From Pyrinomonadaceae bacterium (lineage in GTDB: Bacteria > Acidobacteriota > Blastocatellia > Pyrinomonadales > Pyrinomonadaceae), in contig JAVEDP010000022.1 of the NCBI GenBank assembly GCA_030841085.1, forward strand, positions 124,001 to 188,000: a DNA stretch of 64,000 bases. The letters run 5' to 3'. Below are positions 34,107-44,043 of this stretch, one piece after another (position 1 is the first letter of the stretch; each line of letters begins with the position of its first letter). The position numbers and the translations under genes are program-made. The notes below the pieces were generated by a model. It worked only from the letters and a program-made list of their open reading frames with translations, was not told where the DNA came from and ran no database searches.

Positions 34107-34562
34107 TTACTCTTTCTTATCAACCGGCAATCCTGCATTTTGCCAGGCTGCAAAACCACCTAGTAGCGCAGCCGCGTTATCAATCCCTTTTCCTTTGAGG
34201 TCGACCACCGCACGGGCGGACGTATGTTCGCTTGGTCAAGAACAATAGGTGACGATGAGCTTGTCCTTTGGCAGCTCGCTTAGATGATTCGGAAGGTCTG
34301 CTTCCGGAATCAACTTCGCGCCGTGAATGTGACCGGCGTTGTACGAGGCTTCGTTACGCACGTCAATAACGACCGCTTGATTTTTGGCAAGCAGGTCCTG
34401 AAGTTCACTAACGCTGATCCGGCGCGCGCCATCAGCAGCCGGAGCGGCAGGTGACGCAGTTGCGATTGGGCCGCTGCGGTTTTTCTGTTCAGCAGAATTG
34501 CAGCCGCTTTGAGCTACCGCACCCAAAAGACTTAAAACAAAGAAAGAAATAAGAAGACGCAT
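34107..34562 (-). CDS. Rhodanese-like lipoprotein with in-frame TGA (candidate selenoprotein)
   Basis: From the ATG at 34562, eight bases after GGAGG, the frame runs 151 residues to TAA at 34107, with one TGA at 34236-34238 (position 109). A lipoprotein-like signal (LLISFFVLSLLGAVAQSGC) comes first. The rhodanese domain (about 50-145) reads ISVSELQDLLAKNQAVVIDVR, SYNAGHIHGAKLIPE, KLIVTYCS, then the TGA, then PSEHTSARAVVDLKGKG and LLGGFAAWQNAGLPV. The domain continues in the same frame after the TGA, so nothing is shifted or lost. As I recall, relatives have Cys there (YCSCPSE). UGACCA and UGGUCG (34233-34238 and 34202-34207) can pair, as bacterial SECIS hairpins start near the UGA. The alternative is a nonsense mutation. 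Confidence 0.7.
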
Positions 34563-34877: not shown

Positions 34878-36485
34878 ATGCACGAAGAGTCACAAAACCA
34901 AGCGGTGAAGTGGGCCAAGGTCATCGACCATACGCGTTGCATCGGCTGTCACGCGTGCACTACCGCCTGCAAATCTGAAAACCTGGTGCCGCTATCGGTC
35001 ACGCGTACTTACGTCAAGCACGTTGACGTGGGTGTGTTTCCCACCGTGCGGCGCGCGCATCAGGTCACGCGCTGCAATCAATGCGCGCATGCGCCCTGCG
35101 TTACCGCCTGTCCCACAACGGCGATGTTCCAGCGCGGCGACGGCATAGTCGATTTCGACAAATCGATCTGCATCGGTTGCAAGGCCTGCATGGCCGCCTG
35201 TCCTTACGACGCAATCTTCATAAATCCGGAAGATCATTCCGCGGAGAAATGTAACTTCTGCGCGCACCGCATCGATGTCGGTTTGGAACCTGCGTGCGTC
35301 GTAGTTTGTCCAACGCAAGCAATTTTGATCGGTGATATGAACGATACCGAGTCTTACGTTTCACAAATCATTAACCGCGAGCCGGTCGCAGTGCGCCGTC
35401 CGGAAAAAGAGACACTGCCAAAACTTTTTTACAAAGGAGCGCACCAGGCGACGCTGGATCCGCTGGCAGCACGCCGGCCCGACGGCGGACTTTTCATGTG
35501 GAGCGAGCAGCAGGAAAATTCGTCGCAGGTAGTTTCCGGAAATCCAAACTACAACAACAGCTCGGCGGCGGCGTTGCTCTCTTACGACGTGGCCCATGCG
35601 ATCCCCTGGGACTGGAAAGTCAGTCTCTACACCTGGACTAAAGGAATCGCGAGCGGCGTTTATCTCGTCGCCGCTTTGCTCGTGTTGTTTGGTTATCTGA
35701 GTGCGAATAATTCGATCTGGTTGTGGGCGACGCCAGTTGTTTCCGGAATATTTCTCGCGATCACCGGAGGGTTGTTGATTTGGGACCTGGAACATCCGGA
35801 ACGCTTCTACCTGATCTTTACTCGGCCGCAGTGGCGCAGTTGGCTGGTCAAGGGCGCATTCATTATCGCCGGCTATACGTTAGTGTTGGCTTTGCACTTC
35901 TTTGCGAGTTGGTTTGGATCGCGAACTTTTCAAACCTGGCTGATGGTCGCGGGCATTCCGTTGTCGATCATGACCGCCGTTTACACTGCGTATCTATTCG
36001 CGCAAGCGAAGGCGCGCGACATGTGGCAAAACCCGCTGCTGCCGCCGCATCTCCTGGTGCAGGCGTTACTGCTGGGTTCGGCCGTTCTGCTTTTGGTCTT
36101 CGTCGGACTCAAAGGAACGATGGTGTCAGATGACATGACCTTGAGCGGCGTCATCGATACAGTCCGCCGCGAGATTTATTATCTGTTATGCATACTAGTA
36201 GGTTCTAGTTTGCTTCACCTACTGATGATCTGGGGCGAGGTGTCGTTGACGCATCCAACTGCGCACGCGCGTCTGGCAATTTGGGAAATGGTGCGCGGCC
36301 GTTACAAAAGTGATTTTTGGATGGGAATTATTTTATCGCTGGCGGGAGGCTTGCTACCCGCACTCGCGCTTTTCGGCGCCATTGATATTTCGCTCGCCAT
36401 CGCCTGCGCACCGCTCGCGCTGATTGGCATGATGCTTTTCGAAAACGCTTACGTGCAGGCCGGGCAATCAGTGCCGCTGGCGTGA
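34878..36485 (+). CDS. Fused ferredoxin/NrfD-type membrane subunit (PsrB-PsrC fusion) of a molybdoenzyme
   Basis: 535 residues. The N-terminal 185 are a four-cluster [4Fe-4S] subunit of NrfC/PsrB type: CIGCHACTTACKSE, CNQCAHAPCVTACP, CIGCKACMAACPY and CNFCAHRIDVGLEPAC. After a linker the C-terminal part (about 240-535) is an NrfD/PsrC-type membrane protein with many helices, e.g. GIASGVYLVAALLVLFGYL and GGLLIWDLEHPERFYLIF. Normally these are two genes. It should carry electrons between quinone and the catalytic subunit. The partner gene begins at 39403, after an island of unrelated genes. The physiological substrate (polysulfide, thiosulfate or tetrathionate) is inferred from neighbours only. 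Confidence 0.87.
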   Translation: MHEESQNQAVKWAKVIDHTRCIGCHACTTACKSENLVPLSVTRTYVKHVDVGVFPTVRRAHQVTRCNQCAHAPCVTACPTTAMFQRGDGIVDFDKSICIGCKACMAACPYDAIFINPEDHSAEKCNFCAHRIDVGLEPACVVVCPTQAILIGDMNDTESYVSQIINREPVAVRRPEKETLPKLFYKGAHQATLDPLAARRPDGGLFMWSEQQENSSQVVSGNPNYNNSSAAALLSYDVAHAIPWDWKVSLYTWTKGIASGVYLVAALLVLFGYLSANNSIWLWATPVVSGIFLAITGGLLIWDLEHPERFYLIFTRPQWRSWLVKGAFIIAGYTLVLALHFFASWFGSRTFQTWLMVAGIPLSIMTAVYTAYLFAQAKARDMWQNPLLPPHLLVQALLLGSAVLLLVFVGLKGTMVSDDMTLSGVIDTVRREIYYLLCILVGSSLLHLLMIWGEVSLTHPTAHARLAIWEMVRGRYKSDFWMGIILSLAGGLLPALALFGAIDISLAIACAPLALIGMMLFENAYVQAGQSVPLA

Positions 36486-37558: not shown

Positions 37559-39373
37559 ATGACTGGTTATGTGTATTTGCGATATTGCGACCTCTTTGAT
37601 GAAAGATCACGTTTGATAACGCTGAAGCAAAAACTGCGTCAGTTCAAGTTGTCGAACATAATCTTTACCTTAGCGAGGATCAGTCTTCTCCTAGGTCGCC
37701 AAGGAATGCTCCGTGAGGGCAAAGACAACCAGCGGCAGTTACAAGAACTCTTAATCTCAAATTACATTGGCCCTGAGTTGTTGGAAGGGAATCTTAAGCC
37801 GAGGTTCGGTCACTTCGGAGCAGACGAACGCCCTATCTTTTTCCGGCAGCAGATTCTGAATCTCTTGCGAATGTGCGTCCTCCTGTGCCGCGAAGATGCA
37901 CCGATGACTACAGAAGGCAAGTCTCGTGGGGGCTATGAGCTTGGCCAGTGTTGCTTGATGATGAATGATCATCTTGTTTCTCCGAAAGAAGAACAGGCAA
38001 CGGGCGAAGGCAGCGATAAGAAGCGGCGGATGCACATCGGCCTCCAACTCGCTCCGAATATTGAGCTAAATAACCCACCGCAAGCTGCCCGAGCAGTTGT
38101 CCGTGCCGAGAGTCTTTTCTCTGAGATACTCTTCTCCGATGACATGAAAGCCAAGATTGCCACGATTGATCAGAAGCGAGGCTTCGACCTCGCTGAAGCC
38201 TTTCGCGAGGCAACCGGACTCAAGATAGACGAATACACGGAGTTCGTTCTCACCATGACTTCGGTCCTCTTCAGTCGAACTCAGAAAGAGATTGTCGAGA
38301 ACGCAAACCTACTGCTGTTTCGTCGGTCGGAACTTATCAAAGGCACTCGAATTGTTGCCGATGACTTTGATCGTTACTTGGCTCTTGATTGCATGACCCT
38401 CGCGGAAGCGAAAGCGCGCTTCAACGAACCTCAAAAGAAGCTGCTACCACAGTTTGACTATGTTTGGTTCCGGACATGGCCCTTACTTCAACTGGAAGAC
38501 GAAGTGATGGTATGCGTTGATCCCTGCTTTATGGTTGAGAAGCTGAGTTCAGGGATTTATTGGACCATCGTAAACAGCCTGAAAGGCAAGAAACGCGACA
38601 ACGCTCTTACAGCATTCGGATACTTATTCGAGACTTACGTTAGTCGAATCCTGCAACAGGTGTCGCCACCGATTGGCATGTTTATCGACGATCCCAAGTA
38701 TACGAACGGCGAAAGAGCGTTTGATGGAATCATTCATTGCGGAGACCAACTTATCGTGACCGAATGCAAGGCCAGTTTCATGACAATCGAGGCCAAATAC
38801 GGCGGAAGAGTCAGGGGTTTTAACAATGAACTGGACAAGAAGTTTGGAACAGGGCGAGGCGTTGTACAGTTGGTTAATCATATAGAACGGCTCTTCGCCA
38901 GAAAACCTTCCGACCGCTATCGGATTTGTGAGTTAGATCGCGTATCAGAATCCTCACATTCAAGAATCGAGAAGATAACGCCAGTATTGATCGTGCAGGA
39001 ATCGCTCCTTCGATTTTCTGCAATTGAGGAAATGCTGAGTGATCGATTTGTCCGCTTGTTGAAGCAACGGCGCATTTCACACGCTGTGCAGATTGCGCCT
39101 CTAGCTGTTATCGATATCGATACGCTCGAACAAATGAAACCTCACTTGGTAGCTGGCGACTTTACGTTACAGCAATGTCTAAACGCGCGGGCGGTCCGCG
39201 ACCCTGGCTATAGGTCTGGCTCTTGGCATGATTTCTTGATCGAGTCCTTTCCACAGTACGCGACCAAGGCAGATGTGCAAATCAATGAGAAGTTCGAGGC
39301 GATAATGGACCGCGGTACGAGAAACATCTTCGGCGACCAGCCGCAAAGAAACCTAGCCGGAGCGACGTTGTAA
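37559..39373 (+). CDS. 604-residue protein with PD-(D/E)XK nuclease-like motif, possible defence protein
   Basis: The family is not recognised. The N-terminal 300 residues are helical and without hallmark. From about residue 345 a possible restriction-nuclease core is seen: ERAFDGIIHCGDQLIVTECK, i.e. Asp, then Glu-x-Lys, followed by a conserved-looking Gln in GRGVVQLVNHIERLF. This fits PD-(D/E)XK enzymes but is a pattern only. No helicase or methylase is next to it. Base use is visibly richer in A+T than in the flanking molybdoenzyme genes. It is inserted with toxin-antitoxin type genes between the two subunits of one enzyme, as mobile defence cargo often is. Confidence 0.6.
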   Translation: MTGYVYLRYCDLFDERSRLITLKQKLRQFKLSNIIFTLARISLLLGRQGMLREGKDNQRQLQELLISNYIGPELLEGNLKPRFGHFGADERPIFFRQQILNLLRMCVLLCREDAPMTTEGKSRGGYELGQCCLMMNDHLVSPKEEQATGEGSDKKRRMHIGLQLAPNIELNNPPQAARAVVRAESLFSEILFSDDMKAKIATIDQKRGFDLAEAFREATGLKIDEYTEFVLTMTSVLFSRTQKEIVENANLLLFRRSELIKGTRIVADDFDRYLALDCMTLAEAKARFNEPQKKLLPQFDYVWFRTWPLLQLEDEVMVCVDPCFMVEKLSSGIYWTIVNSLKGKKRDNALTAFGYLFETYVSRILQQVSPPIGMFIDDPKYTNGERAFDGIIHCGDQLIVTECKASFMTIEAKYGGRVRGFNNELDKKFGTGRGVVQLVNHIERLFARKPSDRYRICELDRVSESSHSRIEKITPVLIVQESLLRFSAIEEMLSDRFVRLLKQRRISHAVQIAPLAVIDIDTLEQMKPHLVAGDFTLQQCLNARAVRDPGYRSGSWHDFLIESFPQYATKADVQINEKFEAIMDRGTRNIFGDQPQRNLAGATL

Positions 39374-39402: not shown

Positions 39403-42400
39403 TTGAACTTCGACGAATCAAACCATCACCTCAGTGCATCGCGCGAAGAGACGGAAGCGCGTGGCGAGACGTTCTACCCCGGCCCGAGCCGCAGCCATCT
39501 CGCGGCGTATCCGCCGAAGGAGCGCTGGGACGATTGGACCGAGCTTGATTCGCAGGCGTGGCCGCGACGCAAGGAAAGACATTACTCGCTGGTGCCAACG
39601 ACTTGTTTTAATTGCGAGTCTGCCTGCGGTCTGCTCGCCTACATCGACAAAGTCACCGGCGAGGTGCAGAAGTTCGAAGGCAATCCCGAACATCCGGGTT
39701 CGCGCGGACGCAACTGCGCGAAAGGTCCGGCAACGCTCAACCAGATTCACGATCCCGATCGCATTCTTTATCCACTAAAACGAACCGGCAAACGCGGCGC
39801 GGGAAAATGGGAACAGACAACCTGGGATGCGGCGCTTGACGACATCGCGTCTCGGATTCGCAAAGCCATTGTTGAAAATCGCCGCAACGAGATCATGTAT
39901 CACGTTGGCCGGCCCGGCGAAGATGGTTTCACCGAGCGCATTCTCGCCGCGTGGGGAGTCGACGGTCACAACTCGCACACCAACATTTGTTCGTCCGGCA
40001 GTCGTGAGGGTTATCAACTCTGGATGGGACTCGATCGGCCCAGCCCCGATCACGCCAACGCAAAAGTCATCCTGCTGATCAGCGCGCATCTCGAATCGGG
40101 TCATTACTTCAATCCACACGCGCAACGCGTCATTGACGGCAAGGCCAACGGCGCGAAGCTGATCGTGTTCGACACGCGCCTGTCGCACACCGCCACGCAC
40201 GCCGACTACTGGGTCGCGCCGTATCCCGGTTCAGAAGGCGCAATGCTGCTCGCGATCGCGAATTATTTGATCAAGAACAATCTTTACAATCGCGAGTTTG
40301 TGAGACGCTGGTGGAACTGGCAGGAATTCCTGGAACAGAGGTCAGAGGTCAGGGATCAGAGGTCAGAACGCGAGTCCTCGGTTGCAGAGGAAGTTACAGG
40401 ACACCAGGGCACCCACGATAGTTTGCAGGTCGGGACGGGCTTGCCCCCGCTTACCTTCGAAATATTTGAAGCTGAGCTAAAACAACTCTACTCCGAATAC
40501 ACTTTTGAATTCGCCGAACAGGAATCGGGAGTCGATGCGAAAACAATTGAAGAGATTGCGAAGTTAGTCGCGACAGCAGGCACACGCTTTTCCAGTCACA
40601 ACTGGCGCAGCGTTACGTCCGGGGTCAGCGGCGGCTGGGCCGTCGCGCGCGCGGTTTTCATGTTGAATGCGTTGCTGGGCGCGGTCGCGACGGAGGGCGG
40701 CGTGTTTCCTAACGCCTGGAACAAGTTTGTTCCCAAGCCAATCTACACACCGCCTCATCCGCAGATGTGGAACGAAACGCAATGGCCGCGCGAGTACCCG
40801 CTCTCGATGCACGAGATGTCGTTTCTGCTGCCGCACTTTTTGAAAGACGGGCGCGCCAAGCTCGACGTTTATTTCACGCGAGTCTATAACCCGGTATGGA
40901 CCAATCCCGACGGTTTCTCCTGGATCGAAATGTTGACCGATCCCGAGCTGGTTGGCTGTTATGTGGCGCTGACGCCAACGTGGAACGAGACGTCCTATTT
41001 CGCCGACTATGTTTTGCCGATGGGCCATGGCTCGGAACGCCACGACATTCATTCTTATGAAACTCATGATGCGCAATGGCTCGGCTTTCGCCAGCCCGTG
41101 AAGAAAGCGGACAAGCAGCGCGACGGCGAAAGTATTAACGATACTCGGGAGGTAAATCCCGGCGAGGTTTGGGAAGAAAACGAGTTCTGGATGGAACTCA
41201 CCTGGCGAATAGATCCGGACGGCAGCCTCGGCATTCGCCAGTACGTCGAGTCAAAAAAGAATCCCGGTACGCGTCTGAGTGTCGATGAATACTACGAGTG
41301 GATGTTCGACAACTCGGTTCCGGGTTTGCCGGCGAAAGCTGCGGCTGAAGGTCTGACGCCGCTGGAATTCATGCGGCGCTACGGCGCTTATGAAGTCAAA
41401 CAAAAAGTCGGGAAGATATATGAAGAGCCTGTTCCCGAAACCGAACTCGAAGACATACGCGAGGATGCGCGCGGCCGTGTGTTCACACGCGCGGCCAAAC
41501 CCGCCTCGCCAAACGTGGTTCCCATTCCCAGTCCTGATGGCGACGCTGAAGGCCGGCGACTCGTGGGCGTAAAGGTAGACAACGAAATCAAACGTGGATT
41601 TCCGACTCCGAGCGGTAAGCTGGAATTCTATTCGCGCACTCTAGCTGATTGGGGCTGGCCGGAGTTTGCGTTGCCCACCTATATGAAGAGTCACGTGCAC
41701 CCGGACAATCTCGAACCGGATCAGACAATTTTGATTTCAACTTTTCGTTTGCCAGTGCAGATTCATACGCGCAGTGCCAATGCCAAGTGGCTTGACGAGA
41801 TCGCCCACACCAATCCGCTTTGGATTCATACCAATCATGCGGCGAAACTTGGCGTGCGAACCGGCGACTTGCTGCGCGTGGAAACTGAAATTGGTTATTA
41901 CGTGGTGCGCGCCTGGGTTACGGAAGGCATTCGGCCGGGCATCGTCGCCTGTTCACATCACATGGGCCGTTGGAAAACAGCCGAACAAGCCGAACAGGGA
42001 CAGCGGCAATTGATGGCAACGGTAAAGTTGGACCATGAAGGAACCGAGTGGGGACTCAAGCGCGAAAAGGGCGCGGGGCCTTACGAGTCAACCGATCCGG
42101 ACACGTTGCGCATTTGGTGGAGCGACGTGGGCGTGCATCAGAACATGACTTTTCCTGTTCACCCCGATCCAATTTCCGGAATGCACTGTTGGCACCAAGC
42201 CGTGCGCGTCACGCGTGCAAAGGAAGGCGACAACACCGGCGATGTGTTTGTTGACACTGCAAAGTCGCGCGAGGTTTATCGCAAATGGCTGGCCCTGACG
42301 CGGCCGGCTGATCAGTTTTCACCTGACGGAACGCGCCGGCCTTACTGGATGCTGCGCCCGCTGAAGCCGGCGCGCGAATCTTATAAATTGCCTGAGCAAG

Positions 42401-42426
42401 AATCGGACTCAGTTGGTGTGGATTAA
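39403..42426 (+). CDS. Molybdopterin oxidoreductase catalytic subunit (PsrA/PhsA-like)
   Basis: 1007 residues from a TTG at 39403. N-terminal [4Fe-4S] motif: TTCFNCESACGLLAY with the fourth Cys in GRNCAKGPA. The active-site segment is HTNICSSGSREGYQL, whose Cys should bind molybdenum; it is not selenocysteine. Further cofactor motifs are FDTRLSHTATHADYWV, GMWA-type PTWNETSYFADYVLPMGHGSE and a C-terminal MopB domain from about 790 (IHTRSANAKWL, GIVACSHHMGRW). The start has no twin-arginine signal, unusual for PsrA-type enzymes. Residues about 311-350 come from short repeats (40334-40452). Polysulfide or thiosulfate-type activity is inferred from neighbours. Confidence 0.87.
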   Translation: MNFDESNHHLSASREETEARGETFYPGPSRSHLAAYPPKERWDDWTELDSQAWPRRKERHYSLVPTTCFNCESACGLLAYIDKVTGEVQKFEGNPEHPGSRGRNCAKGPATLNQIHDPDRILYPLKRTGKRGAGKWEQTTWDAALDDIASRIRKAIVENRRNEIMYHVGRPGEDGFTERILAAWGVDGHNSHTNICSSGSREGYQLWMGLDRPSPDHANAKVILLISAHLESGHYFNPHAQRVIDGKANGAKLIVFDTRLSHTATHADYWVAPYPGSEGAMLLAIANYLIKNNLYNREFVRRWWNWQEFLEQRSEVRDQRSERESSVAEEVTGHQGTHDSLQVGTGLPPLTFEIFEAELKQLYSEYTFEFAEQESGVDAKTIEEIAKLVATAGTRFSSHNWRSVTSGVSGGWAVARAVFMLNALLGAVATEGGVFPNAWNKFVPKPIYTPPHPQMWNETQWPREYPLSMHEMSFLLPHFLKDGRAKLDVYFTRVYNPVWTNPDGFSWIEMLTDPELVGCYVALTPTWNETSYFADYVLPMGHGSERHDIHSYETHDAQWLGFRQPVKKADKQRDGESINDTREVNPGEVWEENEFWMELTWRIDPDGSLGIRQYVESKKNPGTRLSVDEYYEWMFDNSVPGLPAKAAAEGLTPLEFMRRYGAYEVKQKVGKIYEEPVPETELEDIREDARGRVFTRAAKPASPNVVPIPSPDGDAEGRRLVGVKVDNEIKRGFPTPSGKLEFYSRTLADWGWPEFALPTYMKSHVHPDNLEPDQTILISTFRLPVQIHTRSANAKWLDEIAHTNPLWIHTNHAAKLGVRTGDLLRVETEIGYYVVRAWVTEGIRPGIVACSHHMGRWKTAEQAEQGQRQLMATVKLDHEGTEWGLKREKGAGPYESTDPDTLRIWWSDVGVHQNMTFPVHPDPISGMHCWHQAVRVTRAKEGDNTGDVFVDTAKSREVYRKWLALTRPADQFSPDGTRRPYWMLRPLKPARESYKLPEQESDSVGVD
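40334..40452 (+). repeat. Repeat insertion inside the molybdoenzyme gene
   Basis: Tandem AGAGGTCAGAGGTCAGGG-type units, then AGGACACCAGGGCACC, then GTCGGGACGGGCTTGCCCCC. The last is a family K word, also present at 42471-42557. In frame it adds about 40 residues (EVRDQRSERESS, GTGLPPLTF). Confidence 0.7.
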
Positions 42427-42600: not shown

Positions 42601-44043
42601 ATGTACTTTAAGCAATTCTATCTAGGCTGTCTGGCGCACGCTTCGTACCTGATCGGTTCAGAAGGCGAAGCGGCGGTGGTTGATCCGCAACGCGATGTAG
42701 ACGAGTACATCAAGGAAGCCACCGCGCAGAAACTCGAAATCAAATACATTATCGAGACTCATCTGCACGCTGATTTTGTTAGCGGCCATCGCGAGCTTGC
42801 GGCTCGCACTGGCGCTGAGATTGTCTTCAGCAGAACAGCCCAAGCCACATTCAAACATCGCGCAGTCAAAGACGGTGAGGAGTTAAAGCTCGGCAAAGTC
42901 GTGTTGCGAATCATGGAAACACCCGGACACACGCCGGAGAGTATTTGCATTCTCGTGACCGACACCGCGGTTTCTGATAAGCCGCAGAAAATCTTGACTG
43001 GAGATACGTTATTCATTGGCGACGTTGGCCGTCCCGACCTCGCCGGCGGCAAAGGCTACACGCCACAAATGATGGCCGGCCTGATGTATGACACGCTGCA
43101 CGAAAAACTCTTGCGACTGGCCGACGAGGTGGAAGTTTATCCGGCACACGGCGCCGGTTCGATGTGCGGTAAGAACATGTCAAACGAACGATCGTCAACC
43201 ATAGGCGAGCAGCGCAAGTTCAACTACGCGCTCAAGCCGATGGCGAAAGATGAATTCGTGCGCATGATGACTGTTGATCTCGCCGAAGCTCCTGCCTACT
43301 TTCCCAAAGACGCGGAAATGAACCGCACCGGCGCGGAAGTGTTGAGTCAATTACCCAAGGCGGAGCCGTTGACACCGAAACAGGTTCGCGACCTAACATC
43401 GCAAACTAACAGTTTGCTTTACGGCGAATCGCAAACAGGCAGTTTGCGTTACCTCATTCTCGACGTGCGTACGGCCGCAGAATTTGGCGCGGGTCATGTG
43501 CCGGGCTCATTGAACGTCGGTTTGGGTGGCCAGTTTGCGATGTGGGCCGGCACGCTGATTCCGTTAACTACGCCAATCGTCATCGTGGCGGATTCGGAAT
43601 CGCAGGTTCCGGAAGCGCAAATGCGCCTGGCGCGGGTCGGCAGCGAAAATGTGAAAGGCTATCTCGCCGGTGGCGTGGACGAGTGGCAGCGTTCCGGATT
43701 TGAACTCGTTACAGTTCCGCAAATTTCAGTCGCCGAATTAAGCACGCTAATTTTAGAACAAACCTGGTTGCAAATACTCGACGTGCGGCGGTCGCCAGAG
43801 TACGCCAGTGGCCACGTGCCGCGCGCATTTCATGCGCCACTTGCAACCCTCTCGCAAACCATTAGAAATTTGCAGCTCGATCCAGCCAAACCAACGGCCG
43901 TGATTTGTGCCGGCGGATTTCGCTCGAGCGCCGCCACCAGCATCCTCCAGGAAAATGGCTTTACGAATCTAATGAACGTCACCGGCGGCACAACTGCCTG
44001 GGTCAATGCGGGCCATCCTGTGGAAATACTGCCAAAGAGTTAA
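42601..44043 (+). CDS. Persulfide dioxygenase-sulfurtransferase (CstB-like): MBL fold plus two rhodanese domains
   Basis: 480 residues. N-terminal metallo-beta-lactamase domain (1-240): ETHLHADFVSGHRELA, METPGHTPESICI, LTGDTLFIGDVGRPDLAGG and VYPAHGAGSMCG, the ETHE1/persulfide dioxygenase pattern. The first rhodanese domain (about 250-365) has ILDVRTAAEFGAGHVPGSLN but no Cys in its loop (IVIVADSESQVPE), so it is inactive. The second (about 375-478) has VICAGGFRSSAATSIL with active Cys. This layout matches CstB of Staphylococcus, which oxidises persulfide to thiosulfate. Residues about 268-284 are encoded by two family B repeat copies. It fits the sulfur-related genes upstream. Confidence 0.9.
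   Translation: MYFKQFYLGCLAHASYLIGSEGEAAVVDPQRDVDEYIKEATAQKLEIKYIIETHLHADFVSGHRELAARTGAEIVFSRTAQATFKHRAVKDGEELKLGKVVLRIMETPGHTPESICILVTDTAVSDKPQKILTGDTLFIGDVGRPDLAGGKGYTPQMMAGLMYDTLHEKLLRLADEVEVYPAHGAGSMCGKNMSNERSSTIGEQRKFNYALKPMAKDEFVRMMTVDLAEAPAYFPKDAEMNRTGAEVLSQLPKAEPLTPKQVRDLTSQTNSLLYGESQTGSLRYLILDVRTAAEFGAGHVPGSLNVGLGGQFAMWAGTLIPLTTPIVIVADSESQVPEAQMRLARVGSENVKGYLAGGVDEWQRSGFELVTVPQISVAELSTLILEQTWLQILDVRRSPEYASGHVPRAFHAPLATLSQTIRNLQLDPAKPTAVICAGGFRSSAATSILQENGFTNLMNVTGGTTAWVNAGHPVEILPKS
43401..43452 (+). repeat. Two family B repeat units inside the persulfide dioxygenase gene
   Basis: GCAAACTAACAGTTTGCTTT begins at 43401 and GCAAACAGGCAGTTTGCGTT at 43431; both end in AC. The first is identical to the intergenic family B unit. 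In frame they give QTNSLLYGE and QTGSLRYL. Confidence 0.85.

Follow-up and report, generated by a model that had tools for sequence, protein, structure and literature searches.

In rhodaneses, the cysteine of the active-site loop is the residue that carries the sulfur. Rhodaneses that contain selenocysteine (Sec) have already been catalogued among bacterial selenoproteins: those with a CxU motif appear as rhodanese-like form 3, which is tied to the NCBIfam model NF041203 (PMC13188914), and as COG0607 form 2 in PMC9312934, where the part of the article consulted gives the form without NF041203. The remaining catalogued rhodanese selenoproteins in the part of PMC13188914 used here, namely forms 1, 2 and 4 (UxxS, UxxG) and TsoB (UxxxxU), likewise have Sec within the rhodanese domain, but their motifs differ from the CxU of the protein described below.

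The window analysed here, a 64-kb stretch of DNA (64,000 nucleotides) from a Pyrinomonadaceae bacterium, contains on its minus strand, at positions 34107-34562, a candidate Sec rhodanese gene of 151 codons plus a TAA. The start ATG at 34562 is preceded by GGAGG, codon 109 is a TGA (34236-34238, minus strand, read from 34238 to 34236), and the 42 sense codons that follow it, up to the TAA at 34107, encode the rest of the rhodanese domain. The domain covers residues 50-143 (34134-34415, minus strand; Pfam PF00581, 1.2e-16, also recovered with AlphaFold and Foldseek), and therefore spans the TGA. Two codons before the TGA lies that of Cys107 (34242-34244, minus strand), the first residue of the active-site loop YCS-U-PSEHTS, assigned by alignment with YCRTGGRS of 3tp9 and by the loop in the AlphaFold model. 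The initial annotation had given the coordinates and frame, the in-frame TGA two residues after the loop Cys, and the 42 codons in frame with their conserved domain end, all of which hold upon sequence reading and alignment; the strand had been left unstated. From its sequence, the encoded protein is organized as a hydrophobic leader (signal sequence, residues 1-20, 34503-34562, minus strand), Cys21, a Pro/Ala-rich spacer and the rhodanese domain. Regarding its designation as a lipoprotein, the leader is there, and Cys21 is a candidate lipid-anchor residue, but the QSGC of the window protein departs from the usual lipobox and does not fit even a loose lipobox pattern, which 26 of the 34 rows of the window's type do fit.

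The AlphaFold model, built from seven sequences, has block-mean pLDDT values of 90-98 across residues 51-150 and places the loop (residues 107-112) between a strand (102-106) and a helix (113-124). The best Foldseek matches among solved structures are rhodanese domains, some of which belong to persulfide enzymes, namely a dioxygenase fusion and a reductase. The rhodanese domains of 3tp9 and of 5ve3 (the persulfide dioxygenase fusion) share with the window protein both the fold and the loop Cys, which in 3tp9 is the Cys aligned with Cys107; unlike the window protein with its Sec109, the aligned loop of 3tp9 has no Cys two residues further on. With a rhodanese domain containing Cys-x-Sec, the protein fits the definition of the CxU rhodanese selenoproteins, and its best NCBIfam match is indeed NF041203 (rhodanese_LYCAU; 2.4e-24), with which it shares the domain and the CxU loop. 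However, when scored with C in place of U it reaches 85.4 bits, below the model's cut-off of 115, and the TsoB model gives it 31.3 bits against a cut-off of 805. With the TGA left unread, the NF041203 cut-off was exceeded in none of the 59 genomes searched (the window's own and 58 relatives); one locus, L047, reaches 116.9 bits when read through. A tree built quickly from 92 domains over 106 columns, in which many forks stay open, places the window protein in a 63-row clade; a branch with 98% support divides it from a second clade, of 29 rows, that holds L047 together with the fusions to membrane proteins described below. It also differs from the NF041203 proteins in its signal sequence, its type being mostly lipoprotein. 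Judged by these comparisons, the window protein is a new variant of the CxU rhodanese, outside NF041203. Since the cut-off of this model excludes the window member of the clade, genes of this sort may easily be recorded as truncated ones. On the same tree, 15 changes between Sec and Cys are needed, and at least 8 of them are forced by well-supported branches; with close Sec and Cys forms standing side by side as well, the role of Sec in a rhodanese becomes testable.

All 59 genomes gave a rhodanese match, not always of the window's type, and the loci counted were the best-scoring of each search rather than all matches. The best 30 loci yielded 32 aligned stretches, the window included, with TGA at codon 109 in 31 and Cys in the other (L024); among the relatives' stretches alone the proportion is 30 of 31, and each of these 30 contains exactly one stop. 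Even in relatives as distant as 33-40% identity this codon is again TGA, which chance does not explain. Over the phylum, where 12 candidates at most were scored per genome, 43 of 297 genomes matched the family profile at 1e-24 or better, and among the 57 matches listed 39 have one TGA and 18 have none. Pooling all fetched loci, and leaving out identical domains and stretches that do not cover query residues 62-138, gave 93 distinct domains, of which 69 have Sec at the site, 23 Cys and one Ser. The Ser-bearing domain (L072) belongs to a different rhodanese and was excluded from the set of 92 domains and from the tree, so that only Sec or Cys occurs at this position among homologues of the same kind. 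The expectation in the initial annotation that relatives have Cys here is thus correct for 23 of the 92 domains; the other 69 have Sec. A contig scan with a pattern requiring Cys returned 6 loci in named genomes, all Cys forms; the best, 49% identical, is from Pyrinomonas methylaliphatogenes (Acidobacteriota, Pyrinomonadaceae; L096), and its 54-nt stretch is identical to that of L106 of G139, a genome placed in the window's family. G139 has two more matches, each with one TGA, and may be of the same species as P. methylaliphatogenes. No relative of the Sec rhodanese was found in a search of viral contigs.

Two further observations concern gene types and copies. The second rhodanese match of L072, which is a different rhodanese, contains an in-frame TGA at another position of the loop (YCASPT-TGA-HAS); its motif is similar to the UxxS of one of the catalogued rhodanese forms. 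Sec rhodaneses like that of the window occur as tandem pairs, no more than a few hundred bases apart, at L025/L056 (G021), L033 (G029) and L105 (G128).

According to the bacterial SECIS model given in the legend of Figure 2A of PMC13188914, the element has a loop of 3-9 nt on a stem of 4-16 pairs, with G in the first two loop positions, a distance from UGA to loop of 16-37 nt and an energy of -7.5 kcal/mol or lower. The DNA downstream of the TGA aligns codon by codon across the genes, and reveals a five-pair hairpin at 19-33 nt from the U of UGA, with the core CCGCC-CGUGC-GGUGG in the window (34205-34219, minus strand; codon alignment, pair counts and folding). Its arms, CCGCC and GGUGG in the window, are GCGCC and GGYGC in most other genes. 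Counting identical DNA stretches once (L106 being the same stretch as L096), all five pairs are present in 28 of the 33 Sec genes that belong to the window's type (a number that includes the window gene) and in 12 of 14 other Sec rhodaneses, versus none of 11 Cys forms. Resampling of synonymous codons by local usage (2000 rounds) gave means of 2.4 in 33 (maximum 8), 0.9 in 14 (maximum 5) and, for the Cys forms, 0.1 in 11 (maximum 1), so that the hairpin of the Sec genes is more than a by-product of the protein sequence. The geometry was defined on this first set, and held-out loci provided an independent test, with all five pairs in 18 of 21 Sec genes versus 1 of 12 Cys genes, compared with resampled means of 1.3 in 21 (maximum 6) and 0.4 in 12 (maximum 3), respectively, in 1000 rounds. 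One or more pairs are thus missing in 5 of the 33 and, among held-out loci, in 3 of the 21 Sec genes. The outermost pair is C-G in 8 of the 33 and G-C in 19, both sides having changed. All 47 of 47 genes have G at the second loop position, and the base after it is U or G.

This hairpin fits the geometry of the published model as given in the legend cited above, with its loop of 5 nt, five pairs, G at loop position 2 and 21 nt from UGA to loop; the energy of a 21-nt hairpin, -8.9 kcal/mol, is within the limit, and shorter cuts give -6.6 (17-19 nt) and -5.9 kcal/mol (15 nt). A hairpin after the UGA had been anticipated in the initial annotation, but not this one. For the 45 nt from the UGA on in the window sequence, the structure of lowest energy is the stem drawn there, UGACCA/UGGUCG with an inner CCGC/GCGG, yet it is complete in only 2 of the 33 Sec genes and would pair the UGA itself, and was rejected as the conserved element in favor of the smaller hairpin. 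In the window sequence the pairing probability of the conserved hairpin is 0.05 with the UGA free, 0.78 with the UGA held out and 0.99 with nine bases held out. Because the UGA, at the least, would be occupied by a ribosome paused on it, we take the conserved five-pair hairpin to be the working SECIS element. The Rfam model RF00031 (SECIS_1) had no match in the genome, nor in any of its 14 controls.

The genome to which the window belongs (4.69 Mb, 43 contigs, 98.9% complete) encodes SelA and SelB, as well as a SelD (L004, C29:109349-110278, minus strand), matched over 310 of 311 positions. As there is one TGA in frame within this match, SelD itself is probably a selenoprotein too. It also has two tRNA-Sec genes with anticodon TCA (L008:1497-1595, minus strand, and L009:1501-1599, plus strand), which differ at 6 of 99 bases; a tRNA search limited to the 64-kb window found none. 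Across the 59 genomes, SelB was above the cut-off of 1e-40 in 51 and tRNA-Sec was matched in 56, with a single tRNA-Sec match in most of them and four in G015. In G035 (99% complete) neither SelB nor tRNA-Sec was matched, and the two rhodanese matches listed for it are both free of stops, a coincidence that speaks for the reading of the TGA as Sec. There are also genomes where TGA rhodaneses are present and part of the machinery was not matched: SelB at 1e-40 in G004, G015 and G032, which do have tRNA-Sec, tRNA-Sec in G013 (62% complete), which has SelB, and both in G001 (67% complete); incomplete assemblies may explain these five cases.

Given the machinery, the conservation of the TGA and the hairpin, codon 109 is almost certainly read as Sec and the gene is, with the same confidence, a working selenoprotein gene, a conclusion about as secure as sequence alone allows. 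The proposal of a candidate selenoprotein is therefore sustained, and none of the three observations named at the outset as fatal to it was made: SelA, SelB, the SelD with its TGA and both tRNA-Sec genes are present in the genome, the only residue other than Cys or Sec among the 93 domains is the Ser of a different rhodanese, and no second stop disrupts any of the 30 closest TGA-bearing stretches.

The gene has neighbors of a sulfur type. As already indicated in the initial annotation, the rhodanese gene is divergent from a sulfur-type molybdoenzyme operon, which on the plus strand and by neighbor comparison comprises a 4Fe-4S ferredoxin/NrfD fusion (34878-36485), a molybdopterin oxidoreductase (39403-42426) and a metallo-beta-lactamase/double rhodanese protein like 3tp9 (42601-44043). 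The nearest solved chains are 2vpw_A for the molybdopterin protein and 2vpw_B for the Fe-S protein, 2vpw being the polysulfide reductase of Thermus, and the nearest structures for the metallo-beta-lactamase/rhodanese protein are 3tp9 and 3r2u. Among the NCBIfam models listed for these three proteins none reached its cut-off, so "polysulfide-reductase-like" is as far as the naming of the operon can go. A relative of the NrfD fusion lies near the Sec rhodanese gene in 10 of 20 loci (19 relatives), and one of the metallo-beta-lactamase/rhodanese protein in 7 of the 20, several of which end at a contig edge, where a missing operon is not proof of absence. The 10 loci are those examined from the window's genus, nine of nine, and one of the two G021 loci, where the distance is about 3.5 kb; in nine of the 10 the fusion is divergent from the rhodanese, and in L093 both run in the same direction. 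The window contains a further gene (37559-39373) that separates the NrfD fusion from the molybdopterin gene and has a weak match to the antiphage model GapS1 (50.4 bits against a cut-off of 320). At the corresponding place L079, a close relative, has about 180 bases, and L076, L080 and L092 have about 1.3-2.7 kb; given this variation it may be an insertion site.

For the expression of the protein, SelB on the short hairpin, with 21 nt between the UGA and the loop, would bring Sec-tRNA to codon 109, and the ribosome would then make an exported rhodanese of 151 residues that has Cys-Ser-Sec in its active-site loop and is probably anchored by a lipid. Polysulfide, thiosulfate or a persulfide could give up a sulfane sulfur to Cys107, and the resulting Cys107 persulfide could be resolved by Sec109, either by forming a Cys-Sec bond with release of sulfide or by handing the sulfur to an acceptor. 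Outside the cytoplasm, the protein would act as a persulfide/polysulfide reductase or relay and, in the window's genus, would work beside the polysulfide-reductase-like complex. This chemistry, suggested by the loop position of Cys107, the fold matches to persulfide enzymes and the sulfur-type neighbors, is put forward tentatively, and may well turn out to be different.

The alternative with most weight accepts the selenoprotein and changes its substrate: the rhodanese fold could have been reused in the envelope for thiol-disulfide or peroxide chemistry and have no sulfane-sulfur substrate. We consider this possible, if on the unlikely side; CxU is a redox-type pair, most such selenoproteins are treated as oxidoreductase-like in the part of PMC9312934 consulted, and the sulfur operon was not found nearby in 10 of the 20 loci, but the rhodanese loop Cys is retained and the operon adjoins the gene in nine of nine same-genus loci examined. 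It is improbable that the protein handles selenium itself, for example by carrying reduced selenium for SelD: rhodaneses can carry selenium and this genome uses Sec, but an exported protein is badly placed for a cytoplasmic SelD. Bacteria do read through UGA as such, and a near-cognate tRNA could in principle insert Trp or another residue at codon 109 in place of Sec; the Cys in 23 of 23 homologous domains without TGA, the complete Sec system of the genome and a hairpin that largely tracks the TGA make this very improbable. As for an ordinary nonsense mutation leaving a pseudogene or a 108-residue fragment, TGA is a stop in table 11 and termination always competes at a Sec codon, but the idea was rejected as barely credible in view of the same-codon TGA in 30 of 31 closest stretches of relatives without a second stop, the conserved domain end downstream, and a hairpin kept beyond coding needs, above resampling.

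Taking the gene, then, as encoding a Sec rhodanese, this work adds to the known CxU forms a sizeable clade, a hairpin defined for it and a tie to a sulfur operon in one genus. The literature search found no earlier description of the clade, the hairpin, the sulfur-operon link or the fusions to membrane proteins; neither a lipoprotein CxU rhodanese of Acidobacteriota nor an antiporter-rhodanese selenoprotein was the subject of any title among the matches listed, which is weak evidence of absence, and the word "antiporter" is absent from the review PMC13188914. More speculatively, the Acidobacteriota of this group might possess, in the envelope and its membranes, a set of Sec rhodaneses that would reduce or sense sulfane sulfur in a selenium-dependent manner, made up of exported lipoproteins, single or in tandem and in one genus beside a polysulfide-reductase-like complex, and of fusions to cation/proton antiporters and to a DedA-type membrane protein; such a system would have been overlooked because gene callers cut each gene at the UGA.

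The antiporter fusions are proteins of about 560-590 residues in which a Na_H_Exchanger domain is followed by a C-terminal CxU rhodanese (L055:1474-3249, minus strand; L059:142-1842, plus strand; L052, L054 and L063), Pfam having been run on two of the five (L055 and L059). The TGA is found in the motif YCAUPNEATSAR in all five, and all five SECIS pairs are present in four of four with distinct stretches. Fusions of DedA to rhodanese are known, with no mention of Sec found in the part of that article consulted (PMC10127716). At L068:1474-2469 (minus strand), a VTT/DedA-type membrane domain is fused to a CxU rhodanese that has both the TGA and all five SECIS pairs.
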